NCBI GenBank assembly: GCA_029568995.1
Contig: JAKPYU010000796.1
Span: 1 to 34,054, forward strand
DNA from: Candidatus Omnitrophota bacterium
GTDB lineage: Bacteria; Hinthialibacterota; Hinthialibacteria; Hinthialibacterales; JAKPRU01
DNA length: 34,054 bases
Direction of reading: 5' to 3'
A program made the position numbers and the translations under genes. Of the stretch, positions 4,993 to 33,238 are shown in pieces (position 1 is the first letter of the stretch; every line of letters starts with the position of its first letter). A model generated the notes under the pieces. The model was given only the letters and a program-made list of their open reading frames with translations. It was not told the origin of the DNA and did no database searches.

Positions 4993-5261
4993 GTCATCGC
5001 CGTTCCGCGAGGTCATGCTTTTTTGATCCCAATCACCGGCTCCGCCGGAGTCGCGCCAGGAAGGTCTGATAACCAGTTCATGAAAGCGCTTTTCGGATTG
5101 AGTAGGACGCCGCATAAAGACAGCACACCCTGTTCCACCAACTCCAATCACCCGTCAGTAGAACCCCCATCACTGCGCGAGATACTTGACCCGATAGAAA
5201 CACATTCCATCGGTAAAGCAATTCTATCACGCCAGCATGGGGGTGTATATAAGGAAATGTA

Positions 5262-5320
5262 TTCCGCAATCCGCAATCCGCAATCCGCAATCCCCAATCC
5301 GCAGTCCCCAATCCGCAATC
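5262..5320. repeat. Tandem heptamer tract (AATCCGC unit), copy 1
   Basis: About eight head-to-tail copies of AATCCGC, some varied to AATCCCC or AGTCCCC, end four bases before the HD-GYP stop codon (5324-5326). A shorter tract of the same unit lies inside a coding gene at 29793-29826. There are no spacers, so this is a simple tandem repeat and not a CRISPR array. Confidence 0.85.
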
Positions 5321-5323
5321 GGT

Positions 5324-13734: not shown

Positions 13735-13748
13735 TCCGGCCTCTTCGC

Positions 13749-14977: not shown

Positions 14978-15014
14978 CCCCCTCTCTCTCCGGGAGAGGG
15001 CTGGGGTGAGGGCG
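14978..15014. repeat. Dispersed repeat, family C, copy 2, with hairpin
   Basis: CCCTCTC and GAGAGGG form a 7-bp stem (14980-15000), followed by CTGGGGTGAGGGCG. The last 25 bases (14990-15014) are identical to 13749-13773. It lies just past the WD40 stop codon and could also end that transcript. Confidence 0.7.
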
Positions 15015-16768: not shown

Positions 16769-17686
16769 TTGACACAAACCACATTTGCACTCAAAGGGAT
16801 CTTACCCGCCCTCAGTACACCGTTCGCGCCGGATGGAACCGTCAACATATCGGTATTGCGCCGCATGGTCCGGTACCACCTGTCCGTCGGCTGCCATGGA
16901 TTTTTTGTCTGCGGAACCGCCGGAGAGGGTTTGCTGCTCTCCCGTGACGAGCGACGGCTTGTTGTCGAAACGGTCATGGATGAAATTGCGGGGCAGGTTC
17001 CCATTATTGTCCACGTCGGCACAGTTTCCACCCGCGAATCGGCGGCGCTTGCCAAAGATGCCGCCGAGCTGGGCGCGTCCGCAGTCTCCAGCATTCCGCC
17101 CGTGTATTATCCCGTCGGCCTGGAGGGAATCATCGAGCATCTGAAAGCCATCTCCGGTGCATCGGGTCTCCCCACATACTATTACCATATCCCCATCATC
17201 TCCCATGTTCCCCTTGTCCTGAACGATTTCATGGAAATCATCGACCAGGTACCCGGCCTGGTGGGATTCAAGTTCACCTTCCCGGACTTGCACCTCCTGT
17301 GGTGTATCCTGGATGCCGCCGGGCCGGATTCGATTTCAATCCTCTACGGAATGGACGAGCAGCTGCTTCAGGGATTGATCAGTGGGGCTGTGGGCGGCAT
17401 CGGTTCGACCTATAATTATCAGTCGAAGACGGTTGTCCAACTCTACGAGGCGTTCTGCCGGGGGGATCTCGACACCGCTATGCAGATGCAGCGGAAAGTC
17501 AACGCCGTGGTGAGGATTCTCCGGAAGTACGGCGGGAACCTGGCAACGGAAAAAGAAATCATGAAAATGCTGGGGTATGAAGTCGGGCAGCCGCGCGGCC
17601 CCATACGCCCGTTCCCGCAGGACCGCACCGCGCTCATCCGAAAAGAGCTGGAGGATATCGGTTTCTTCAACGGACGCATGATATAA
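16769..17686 (+). CDS. Dihydrodipicolinate synthase / N-acetylneuraminate lyase family aldolase
   Basis: 305 residues of the DapA/NanA (beta/alpha)8 aldolase family, which split or join pyruvate and an aldehyde through a Schiff base. Visible residues: the GTAGEG loop (49-54) that binds the keto-acid carboxylate, Tyr139 in YYYHIP, and the Schiff-base Lys168 in VGFKFT. The FKFT form and YYYHIP resemble neuraminate or sugar-acid lyases more than true DapA. The start codon is TTG at 16769, supported by AAGGAG (16756-16761) 7 bases upstream; no ATG fits. Next to the oxidoreductase it most likely belongs to a catabolic route for sialic acid or a 2-keto-3-deoxy sugar acid. Exact substrate unknown. 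Confidence 0.88.
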   Translation: MTQTTFALKGILPALSTPFAPDGTVNISVLRRMVRYHLSVGCHGFFVCGTAGEGLLLSRDERRLVVETVMDEIAGQVPIIVHVGTVSTRESAALAKDAAELGASAVSSIPPVYYPVGLEGIIEHLKAISGASGLPTYYYHIPIISHVPLVLNDFMEIIDQVPGLVGFKFTFPDLHLLWCILDAAGPDSISILYGMDEQLLQGLISGAVGGIGSTYNYQSKTVVQLYEAFCRGDLDTAMQMQRKVNAVVRILRKYGGNLATEKEIMKMLGYEVGQPRGPIRPFPQDRTALIRKELEDIGFFNGRMI

Positions 17687-17731: not shown

Positions 17732-17771
17732 TCCCTCCCCAAGATTGGGGAGGGTAGGGTGGGGTTGATAA
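17732..17771. repeat. Dispersed hairpin repeat, family B, copy 1
   Basis: CCCTCCCC (17733-17740), loop AAGATT, GGGGAGGG (17747-17754), then TAGGGTGGGGTTGATAA. All 40 bases are identical to 29728-29767, which lies inside a gene. Here it is 45 bases past the aldolase stop codon and may also act as a transcript end. Confidence 0.85.
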
Positions 17772-17875
17772 GTCCAGCAGATTCAATACCCTTAGTCACA
17801 AACGGGCAAGCCCCTCTCCAAAGACTCTTGCCGTCAGCCGAACATGCGGCATAATCATGACGGAGGTAAGATGTG

Positions 17876-18921: not shown

Positions 18922-18931
18922 TCGCAATTCT

Positions 18932-18957
18932 TTGGAGTGCGGCAGCGTAGCTGCCGC
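18932..18957. repeat. Dispersed hairpin repeat, family A, copy 2
   Basis: TTGGAGTGC leads into GCGGCAGC (18939-18946), loop GTA, GCTGCCGC (18950-18957). Orientation is opposite to copies 1 and 3. It lies 10 bases past the stop codon of the preceding gene. Confidence 0.75.
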
Positions 18958-19012
18958 CGTCGCGTGAATTTCCTTTTCCGTCGAAGTTACGATTAAAGAA
19001 CGCGCAGCACAA

Positions 19013-19042
19013 CCGTCATTCCGGACTCGATCCGGAATCCAG
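19013..19042. repeat. Dispersed hairpin repeat, family E, copy 1
   Basis: ATTCCGGA (19018-19025), loop CTCGA, TCCGGAAT (19031-19038), within the frame CCGTC...CCAG. A related copy with a different loop lies at 33209-33238. Hairpins of the CGTCATTCCGG...CCGGAATCCAG type are common dispersed elements in bacteria. Confidence 0.7.
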
Positions 19043-19056
19043 ACAGAGACAATAAG

Positions 19057-19084
19057 GCGGGAGCTGCGCTCCCGCACTCCAAGG
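19057..19084. repeat. Dispersed hairpin repeat, family A, copy 3 (compensatory change)
   Basis: GCGGGAGC (19057-19064), loop TGC, GCTCCCGC (19068-19075), then ACTCCAAGG. Compared with copies 1 and 2, the fifth base of the left arm is G instead of C and its partner is C instead of G, so pairing is kept. It sits between two converging genes, 16 bases before the end of pilC. Confidence 0.75.
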
Positions 19085-27922: not shown

Positions 27923-30256
27923 CTATCCCTGGGGTTTCAACCGGGCCAGGATCATCCCATCCTTATTGTACACAATTTCCAGAACGGAGCTCTGCCAAAA
28001 TGCTTCAAGGTTCTGCCATCCCGGATCCGCTTCAATCGCGGTGCGAACAGACTCATGCCACACACGCACCTGCTCCCACCGGGCAGCGGCATCTCTCATC
28101 CTCAATGGCTCCAGGTCCCGCAATCGTCCAAGAAACTCCACGGTCTGCCGCGCGGGAAGGCACAGAAGCCAATATGCAGGGAACTCCATAGATTGATTGT
28201 AGTCCTGAATCGTTTTTTTGTCATAAAGAACGTACCCGATCCCCTGTTTCCTGAGGGCATTCACGATTCCCTGCACCGTCCCCGTCTCCCGCGCAATCCC
28301 GATCAACGGTGGCGTATCGAACCAGTCCGCCCCCAGGTATCGACGGAGACAATGAAAGTTGTAATGCTGCCCGTGAATCAGGATCTTCTCATCCGGCGGA
28401 ACAAATTGTGCCACCGCTTCAAAGCCATGGTAAAACGTGCGCGTCGTCTGGTTGATCAAACGCAGATACCGCTCCTCATCCACAATGCCCCCGACCACCC
28501 GCCAGGGCGAAAACCCGTTCCGGTCGCAAAATTTCCCGGCATTCCACAAGCCGTAGTACGCCACCACAAAAACCACCAGCCACCGAAAGACAACTTGTCG
28601 CTGCCAGAGACCGGCCGTGCATACCGCGAGCGGGATCGCCAGCACACTCAAACACGGCAACAGAAACCGCGCATCCCGGTAGGTCCAGGCCCAAATCACA
28701 AACAGCACGCCTCCAAACACCGCCAGCAGTCTCTTGGCGGTCGCTTCTGGCCCAAAGAAGAACAATCCAGGCAGACCGATCAGGTACAACGCACTGACCG
28801 GCCAATCTCCGAAATTGTTCTTGCCGATATCAATCGGCGACCAGAGCGGCTTGATTATCAGACCGAGTGTATTCACGATTTTTTCGGGAAAGGACAGAAA
28901 CCCCGCCGCATTCAGATCCCCTTTCAGCCCGGCATGAAAAGAGAAAAACGCCGCGTTTGCCGCAGACCATTCCCCTTCGCCAAACACGCCGATTCCCATC
29001 GGATAAACCGGATTCCCGTGATAAAACACATTCTTGATATACCAGGGGGATGCAACCAGGAACGCAATCACGGACCCCACGATGACCCCCTTGCACCTTC
29101 TCCAATTCCACAAGCCGGAAAATTGTGGAATCATCAACAATAGGGAAAGAGAAAAAAGAAAAATCAGCGCCGTGTATTTGCATCCCAGCAGCCACCCGCC
29201 CGCCATTCCGTACAGCAGCGCGGATCGCCAGGAAAATGTCTGAGTGTTTACAAGATGAATCCCGGCAGCAACTGCCAGCAGAAGATACGCGCACAGCCCC
29301 ATTTCATTGAACGCCCACGATGCCAGGATCGGCACAAAGGGAATACTCGCAAAAAACGCCATGGCGAGTCCGCCCGCCACGCGCCCACCGCCCAGCACGG
29401 CAATCCGGTAGATCAATCCCAGGCAGGCCACCAGCATCGACCAATGAATCATCTTCGCCACGGACGGCAACTCGAACGCCAGCGGGATTGCATACAGAAT
29501 GTCGATGGTCATCGGGAAATTGGAAAACGAAAGGTGTGGGATACGCAGGAAACCGCCCTCTTCCAGCCAGATCTTTGGTGTCGTGAGATGATACCGAAGC
29601 GCATCGGATTGGGTCGGCGGCAACAACGACGAGAAAAAAGAACCCGCCAACAGCGCAATACACACAACACTCAGAACGACCGCCGACGGCGTCCGGAGGA
29701 GCAAATCTCCAAGGGTTTTCCAGAATCTCCCTCCCCAAGATTGGGGAGGGTAGGGTGGGGTTGATAATTCCGCACACTCTTCTCCTCGGCCTGCAATCCG
29801 CAATCCACAATCCACAATCCGCAATAGAATGGGTGGCACAGGCATCTTGCCCGTGAAATATTCCCATACCCCCGCCACACACCCCACCCCCAACAGGCAC
29901 GCAATTTCCGCAAAATGAAACCTCTTCAGCGCCGCCAACATAAACAGCCCATGCGACAGCAATCCCCAGCCGATCAGCGTTGACACTGCCCACGAGTGAA
30001 GCCATTCCACTTGCGGAATCAGCCGACGAAGCAGGAGTCGCCCCGCTCCCCAGCCGGAAAACCAGAACACCAGTAACAACGCATACTTCTCCCAATGACC
30101 CGTAATGGTCTCAATCCGAAATAGAAGAAACACATCCGCCCCGTAGGCGTGAATAAAATCCCACCGGATGGGAGTTCCGAGCAACTGTTTCGGGAGAATC
30201 GCAAGTGCGGCGACCACAATCAATCCCAGGCAACAGAGATCTCGCCGTTGTGTCAT
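27923..30256 (-). CDS. Multi-pass membrane protein, GT-C glycosyltransferase-like
   Basis: 777 residues with about a dozen or more hydrophobic segments across the first 600 residues and a soluble C-terminal domain of about 180. The first periplasmic loop region reads PPTQSDALRYHLTTPKIWLEEGGF, in the style of GT-C lipid-linked sugar transferases (acidic residue and YHL near the first loop), so it may add sugars to a lipid, protein or pilin. This is inferred from layout only. Residues of about 135-179 (TGKMPVPPILLRIVDCGL onward) are not native-looking: they are encoded by three dispersed DNA repeats stacked at 29728-29855, kept in frame in a loop between membrane segments. The ATG overlaps the DUF4911 stop (ATGA). 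Confidence 0.78.
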   Translation of the reverse strand: MTQRRDLCCLGLIVVAALAILPKQLLGTPIRWDFIHAYGADVFLLFRIETITGHWEKYALLLVFWFSGWGAGRLLLRRLIPQVEWLHSWAVSTLIGWGLLSHGLFMLAALKRFHFAEIACLLGVGCVAGVWEYFTGKMPVPPILLRIVDCGLRIAGRGEECAELSTPPYPPQSWGGRFWKTLGDLLLRTPSAVVLSVVCIALLAGSFFSSLLPPTQSDALRYHLTTPKIWLEEGGFLRIPHLSFSNFPMTIDILYAIPLAFELPSVAKMIHWSMLVACLGLIYRIAVLGGGRVAGGLAMAFFASIPFVPILASWAFNEMGLCAYLLLAVAAGIHLVNTQTFSWRSALLYGMAGGWLLGCKYTALIFLFSLSLLLMIPQFSGLWNWRRCKGVIVGSVIAFLVASPWYIKNVFYHGNPVYPMGIGVFGEGEWSAANAAFFSFHAGLKGDLNAAGFLSFPEKIVNTLGLIIKPLWSPIDIGKNNFGDWPVSALYLIGLPGLFFFGPEATAKRLLAVFGGVLFVIWAWTYRDARFLLPCLSVLAIPLAVCTAGLWQRQVVFRWLVVFVVAYYGLWNAGKFCDRNGFSPWRVVGGIVDEERYLRLINQTTRTFYHGFEAVAQFVPPDEKILIHGQHYNFHCLRRYLGADWFDTPPLIGIARETGTVQGIVNALRKQGIGYVLYDKKTIQDYNQSMEFPAYWLLCLPARQTVEFLGRLRDLEPLRMRDAAARWEQVRVWHESVRTAIEADPGWQNLEAFWQSSVLEIVYNKDGMILARLKPQG
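29728..29767. repeat. Dispersed hairpin repeat, family B, copy 2 (inside a gene)
   Basis: All 40 bases match 17732-17771, including the CCCTCCCC/GGGGAGGG stem. On the coding (minus) strand it reads in frame as LSTPPYPPQSWGG within the 777-residue membrane protein. Confidence 0.85.
29793..29826. repeat. Tandem heptamer tract (AATCCGC unit), copy 2 (inside a gene)
   Basis: About four to five units of AATCCGC/AATCCAC. On the minus strand it encodes the segment LLRIVDCGLRIAG of the membrane protein, which is the well-known translation of this tandem repeat. Confidence 0.8.
29831..29855. repeat. Dispersed repeat, family F, copy 1 (inside a gene)
   Basis: GGTGGCACAGGCATCTTGCC followed by CGTG, read on the minus strand as a GGCAAGATGCC-type hairpin and translated TGKMPVPP. 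A related copy with fully paired arms lies at 33167-33187. It directly abuts the heptamer tract. Confidence 0.65.
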
Positions 30257-33138: not shown

Positions 33139-33166
33139 TCCGATCTCTCTTCAGAATCCGGAATTC

Positions 33167-33187
33167 GGGGGCAAGATGCCCCCGCTC
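33167..33187. repeat. Dispersed hairpin repeat, family F, copy 2
   Basis: GGGGGC (33167-33172), loop AAGAT, GCCCCC (33178-33183), then GCTCCC. It lies about 30 bases past the cheX stop codon and might also work as a transcript end, though no T-run follows. Confidence 0.6.
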
Positions 33188-33208
33188 CCTTCTCTTTCAT
33201 CTCGCCCG

Positions 33209-33238
33209 CGTCACTCCGGCGAAAGCCGGAATCCTGGG
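33209..33238. repeat. Dispersed hairpin repeat, family E, copy 2
   Basis: TCCGGC (33215-33220), a GAAA tetraloop, GCCGGA (33225-33230), within the frame GCGTCAC...ATCCTGG. It shares flanks with the copy at 19013-19042. The GAAA (GNRA) loop is especially stable in RNA. Confidence 0.7.

Follow-up and report, generated by a model that had tools for sequence, protein, structure and literature searches.

A short stretch of a gene for a predicted membrane protein consists of three dispersed DNA repeats, all traversed by an intact reading frame. The stretch is missing from homologues in order-level relatives and carries a different hairpin in two congeners. Corresponding differences are observed in two further genes, and the host gene is under purifying selection outside the insert. 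We propose, with a probability of about 0.7, that the encoded loop constitutes a permissive in-frame slot which was colonised by short dispersed hairpins in the ancestor of the genus and has been turned over since.

The host gene and its three in-frame repeats

The window (34,054 nucleotides from a Candidatus Omnitrophota bacterium) spans an entire contig of a metagenome bin of 6.3 Mb and 807 contigs, hereafter G000; it is compared with two congeners (84% identical), G001 and G002. The features considered are the following.

27923–30256, minus strand: host gene of 777 codons with intact frame, encoding a membrane protein of predicted GT-C glycosyltransferase fold
29720–29862, minus strand: repeat-derived protein segment (about residues 132–179), of lowest model confidence and missing in order-level homologues
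29725–29771, plus strand: repeat B, a 9-pair hairpin with tail AGGGTGGGGTTGAT, including the exact 40-mer at 29728–29767
17732–17771, plus strand: exact 40-base intergenic copy of B
29793–29825, plus strand: heptamer tract (GCAATCC)n, encoding LRIVDCGLRIA on the gene strand (TRF, GCAATCC × 4.7)
5260–5322, plus strand: intergenic heptamer array of the GCAATCC unit (TRF, 5263–5320), longer than the tract in the gene
29832–29855, plus strand: repeat F, a short hairpin with GGCATCTTGCC core, encoding FTGKMPVPP on the gene strand; a decayed copy is present in both congeners
14980–15012, minus strand: copy of D10, the family found at the position of B in the gene of the congeners

No Pfam model matches the host protein. 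It is, by its predicted structure, a GT-C-fold membrane protein: the AlphaFold model (pTM 0.85) matches in fold comparison the human and archaeal oligosaccharyltransferases (STT3/PglB/AglB), ArnT and DPY19. The model's pLDDT falls below 50 at residues 138–152 and 154–175, that is, in the repeat-encoded stretch, and elsewhere at a few short spots only. This stretch connects two predicted long helices (115–135 and 190–210), and the repeat-encoded segment is predicted to be a flexible loop between two membrane helices, unstructured and exposed.

Outside the insert, comparison with G001 yields a dN of 0.077 and a dS of 0.49 (dN/dS ∼0.16), and the host gene is thus under purifying selection. The repeat-derived segment is the fastest-evolving part of the protein, with a nucleotide identity of 0.60–0.62 versus 0.86 for the rest and a dN of 0.42–0.46 versus 0.08. 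From one conserved anchor to the other the window protein comprises 117 residues and those of the two congeners 111 and 103, compared with 79–89 in seven order- and class-level homologues, so that the segment is lineage-specific. The initial annotation had put the added length at about 45 residues; this agrees with the ∼43 codons from F to B, but the net difference from the order- and class-level homologues, 28–38 residues, is somewhat smaller. Homologues that lack the repeats and yet have a conserved segment of equal length at this place were searched for and not found.

Repeat B (∼45 nt) is represented by an exact 40-mer, TCCCTCCCC...GTTGATAA, found both in the host gene and at 17732–17771, between a gene ending at 17686 and one starting at 17873 (expected in shuffled sequences: 0). 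Nine copies with ≤3 mismatches are present in G000, nearly identical to one another, compared with 0 and 1 in the congeners, which suggests that B is a newcomer in the host gene; among 98 genomes searched the family is confined to the genus. As RNA, the B hairpin folds stably (−19.1 kcal/mol; z −3.4), and Rfam gave no match anywhere in the window.

The heptamer is far more abundant: its 21-mer has 567 overlapping matches genome-wide in G000, and 19-mer matches number 347 in G000, 24 in G001 and 12 in G002. Six unrelated genomes also contain it; among these, G053 matches the reversed control as well. The tract in the window gene equals that of the congeners plus exactly three units, i.e., 21 nt, so that the frame is kept. 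The CAATCCG heptamer is amplified about 14-fold in G000 relative to the congeners, for example at 5260–5322 of the window. Two matches in other genes (L232:421 and L260:3370) were rejected as insertions, being ordinary coding sequence (PPAIGNPT and FGMRMADA).

Repeat F (24 nt, GGTGGCACAGGCATCTTGCCCGTG) has 38 copies in G000. Its pattern occurs in the three congeneric genomes and one class-level relative, and is met sporadically among unrelated genomes (5 of ∼276); six order-level relatives of other genera lack it. Reversed-pattern controls across the genome were zero for B, the heptamer 21-mer and F alike, excluding chance. It had been noted that each of the three repeats recurs elsewhere in the window outside genes. 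This is confirmed for B and the heptamer, and for F it is true only loosely: the copy in the gene is the sole one in the window at ≤3 mismatches, and its nearest relative there is a stem-changed hairpin, CGGGGGCAAGATGCCCCCG, near 33168–33186. That F-like hairpin adjoins a GTCACTCCGGCGAAAGCCGGAATCC repeat (33166–33237), and the G001 orthologue carries repeat F2 at this place.

Different repeats at one site in congeners and in further genes

DNA alignment reveals that in both congeners F survives at the site in decayed form, together with a single heptamer unit and GGCCGA, followed by a D10 hairpin (∼40 nt) in place of the window's B. The hairpin of G002, CCCTCACCCCGACTCTCTCCCGCAGGGAGAGGG, is a clean D10 member and that of G001 a decayed one; D10 in the congeners and B in the window are oriented alike with respect to the coding strand. 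A further D10 copy is located in the window at 13739. Since different repeats are found there in the congeners, the site in the host gene represents a re-used spot. The host gene shows neither a target-site duplication nor a clean exchange of one hairpin for the other, and because the sequence surrounding B does not align with that surrounding D10, a larger segment may have been replaced.

The same pattern emerges elsewhere. A gene for an AddB-like helicase-nuclease with UvrD and PDDEXK domains contains an in-frame D10 in G000 and an in-frame B3 at the same place in both congeners. A gene of the O-antigen ligase family, Wzy_C-A, carries B3 in G000, F3 plus D10 in G001 and neither in G002, although the proteins of G001 and G002 are 95–96% identical; the order relatives have no repeat at this site. 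A second Wzy_C gene harbours D10 in all three species, doubled in two of them. Both Wzy_C inserts immediately precede a hydrophobic stretch, and across these genes D10 is read in several different frames, as would be expected of a repeat with five open frames out of six. By eye, no target-site duplication was seen at the B copies or at the empty Wzy_C-A site, and the terminal inverted repeats with target-site duplication expected of a MITE were not found.

The proposal that the repeats tolerate translation is borne out: all six frames of F and of the heptamer are open, as are five of D10 and four of B. Because most repeat reading frames are open, nearly any family would be acceptable in a flexible-linker slot. 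Such tolerance does not imply that the repeats are common in genes, from which they are strongly depleted.

Dispersed repeats and re-occupied sites in the genus

Repeats were sampled in 0.57 Mb of G000 (partly picked for repeats) and 1.28 Mb of G001, scoring twelve and later eighteen families; reversed controls were about zero except for one AT-rich heptamer. Family B3 was recognised by a de novo repeat search. Many copies apparently inside genes but near gene starts were left out, since these starts were probably misplaced by the simple gene finder. The depletion in genes holds although 84–87% of the sampled sequence is coding.

The initial annotation took the landing of three repeats side by side as a sign of a hot spot. 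Three independent landings are not supported: F and D10, in this order, closely spaced and in fixed orientation, occur together at 6 loci in G000 and 5 in G001 (0.7 and 0.4 expected), and because this composite recurs in the same orientation, F and the hairpin in the host gene probably did not arrive separately. The pairs T-E, C-E and H1-H2 likewise exceed chance; F-H1 and B-H1 were each seen once (0.45 and 0.48 expected). As regards the hot spot, the host-gene site is indeed re-used, but general clustering is modest. With placement confined to intergenic space, clusters of unlike families number 21 versus 13.0 expected in one case and 15 versus 7.0 in the other (∼1.6–2-fold), and specific partner pairs, which carry the excess, were hence preferred to a general hot spot. 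A comparison with uniform placement (20 versus 2.5) was set aside, as it ignores that the repeats avoid genes.

Several other arrangements were observed. T-E composites, sometimes joined by B2 or C, occur in fixed orientation at L184:19723-19895, L173:18818-18909 and L234:16554-16817; at the orthologous site L266:3302 T-E is missing and F is found instead. B3 is directly followed by B2 at L214:6394-6467 and L159:9596-9669, nearly identical between congeners, above most repeat sites. The dominant family of G001, CCAGGCAGGGACGCCTGGCCTACT, is both dispersed and arranged in tandem arrays (L158:11766-12095 and L166:14042-14542) and is rare in G000. In the window, an intergenic GTCATTCCGGACTCGATCCGGAATCCAG repeat (18930–19084) is flanked by two D4 hairpins in opposite orientation.

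Orthologous positions provide a measure of re-use. Seventeen repeat sites of G000 have alignable flanks in the G001 sample, and 202 repeat-free intergenic sites treated in the same way served as controls. An annotated repeat is present in G001 at 14/17 repeat sites versus 2/202 controls (Fisher p ∼2e-17). Four of the 14 occupied sites hold the same family, four the same family plus another, and six a different family. Re-occupation by a different family is thus found at 6/9 non-same sites versus 2/202 controls (Fisher p ∼2e-8). Shared ancestry explains the 'same' class. The 'different' class points to re-use or replacement, but 3/6 of its cases fall within the B-type group and call for caution. 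B, B2, B3, B4 and D10 share a common layout, a G/C-rich hairpin plus tail, and some of the apparent swaps could therefore represent one ancient diverged element. Unrelated families also replace each other, namely W2/F2, D10/C and T-E/F.

Proposed origin of the insert and comparison with known systems

The permissive-slot reading envisages the following course. Short hairpin repeats would spread through the genome, and selection would purge them from genes unless they fall in frame within flexible linkers. The common ancestor of the three species probably already had, in the host gene, a composite of F and a D10-like hairpin with a heptamer seed between them. In the lineage of the window the heptamer would have gained its three units with the frame kept, and the D10-type hairpin would have been exchanged for B, the subfamily that expanded in G000. 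The length of the heptamer tract would change by slippage, with steps of three units being kept in genes. Slots in genes and permissive intergenic spots alike would thus turn over, one repeat yielding to another. Both the direction of change, with B as the derived state, and the ancestral composite are suggested by a comparison of three species, no outgroup having the segment. Transposition may have brought about the exchange, or else repair that used another repeat as template, and the segment itself would appear to be without function.

A different history is quite conceivable, in our judgement, yet falls short of being the probable one: a single ancient hairpin may have resided in the slot throughout, its subfamily identity changing by gene-conversion-like copying with no new insertion. 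At L192:18195 (B) versus L245:13871 (B2), the hairpin has its place and orientation in common but a sequence that is that of distant copies, and conserved flanks adjoin it, as they do at L173:10408 (B) compared with a diverged B in G001; the near-identity of the B copies in G000 also supports copying in place. However, exchange between the unrelated families named above argues against it, and so does Wzy_C-A, where the empty site of G002 and the F3 plus D10 of G001 require gain or loss. Independent insertions into a hot spot, at which the DNA of the site or the resident hairpin attracts further mobile repeats, would readily yield re-occupation by unlike families at 6/9 non-same sites and the partner pairs (F-D10, T-E, C-E and H1-H2) above chance. 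Yet such re-use can be explained by a permissive location alone, and with placement in intergenic space alone the clustering of unlike families is only 1.6–2-fold above expectation; we therefore regard attraction by the site as rather doubtful. Related to it is the tentative idea that any place once occupied by a hairpin attracts unrelated hairpins which overwrite the same spot, also in protein genes. Three of the four intragenic slots examined in the genus fit this, and if true, proteins would carry exchangeable repeat cassettes.

That the loop or an mRNA hairpin serves the protein or its expression is improbable. Some repeat-derived stretch is kept in all three species and the B RNA hairpin is stable, but the segment is the fastest-evolving part of the protein, varies among congeners both in length and in sequence, is missing in order relatives and is predicted to be unstructured. 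Least credible of all is a chimera assembled at short repeats. The genome is indeed a metagenome bin of 807 contigs, but the flanks belong to the same gene and stand in the same order in two independent congener bins, and the frame is open. Moreover, an insert of this size is short relative to usual assembly word lengths and reads, which likewise counts against an artefact.

Hairpin repeats next to heptamers have a precedent: in heterocystous cyanobacteria (Nostoc and relatives), Elhai et al. in 2008 (cited in PMC2884548) reportedly described 20–30 nt hairpin repeats lying, nested, in or next to tandem heptamers. By description the present arrangement is similar, with F and B flanking the heptamer tract, though F-H1 and B-H1 pairs show no clear enrichment in the sample; to our knowledge, in-frame exchange in genes did not feature in that cyanobacterial work.

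The permissive slot described here may also be compared with three further systems. REP elements, i.e., GTAG- and CGTC-tagged repeats with RAYT transposases, are likewise short palindromes and mostly intergenic, and intragenic ones are known, many of them in repair genes (PMC3733652, PMC3116915). The consensus sequences of B, F and D10, however, have no terminal GTAG or CGTC tag (the GTAG in B lies inside the tail only and not at the end of the palindrome), which excludes this class. Genes for RAYT-type Y1_Tnp proteins were not found in G000 (94% complete); G001 has three and G002 two. Dimorphic small variable segments are short loci with conserved flanks, often in open reading frames, that hold one of two unlike segments, and such replacement is general in bacterial species (PMC2884548). 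Unlike alternatives at one short locus in an open reading frame are found here too, but the dimorphic segments vary at strain level and are of general occurrence, whereas the alternatives here are members of dispersed repeat families.

The closest parallel is provided by the Rickettsia palindromic elements RPE-1 to RPE-7 (100–150 bp), which reside in open reading frames without breaking them and encode exposed protein regions; RPE-4 at a locus of one species may be matched by RPE-6 or RPE-7 in the orthologue of another, examples being genes for a recB-family exonuclease and an O-antigen ligase (PMC3767692). Here too, palindromic dispersed repeats lie in frame in protein genes, different groups occupy an orthologous locus, the kinds of host gene match (AddB-like and Wzy_C), and the encoded segment falls in a non-conserved loop predicted to be exposed (pLDDT <50, missing in homologues). 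The units are, however, much shorter (B ∼45, D10 ∼40 and F 24 nt), and we thus do not claim membership; the phylum is unrelated, and a heptamer tract is stacked in. The repeats described here would accordingly resemble the Rickettsia elements in their mode of action, a likeness by description. In-frame palindromic repeats that differ between orthologues, known in Rickettsia, are now found in an unrelated, uncultured bacterium with a larger genome. As a practical consequence, predicted proteins can contain peptide strings, such as TGKMPVP, RIADCGL and PLPEGEGE, that are translated DNA repeats and not conserved motifs. Finally, the authors of the Rickettsia study left undecided whether hot spots for insertion or a single diverged element lay behind their pattern (PMC3767692), and the present genus offers an independent system for this question, in which unlike families exchange and one site is empty in a near-identical congener.
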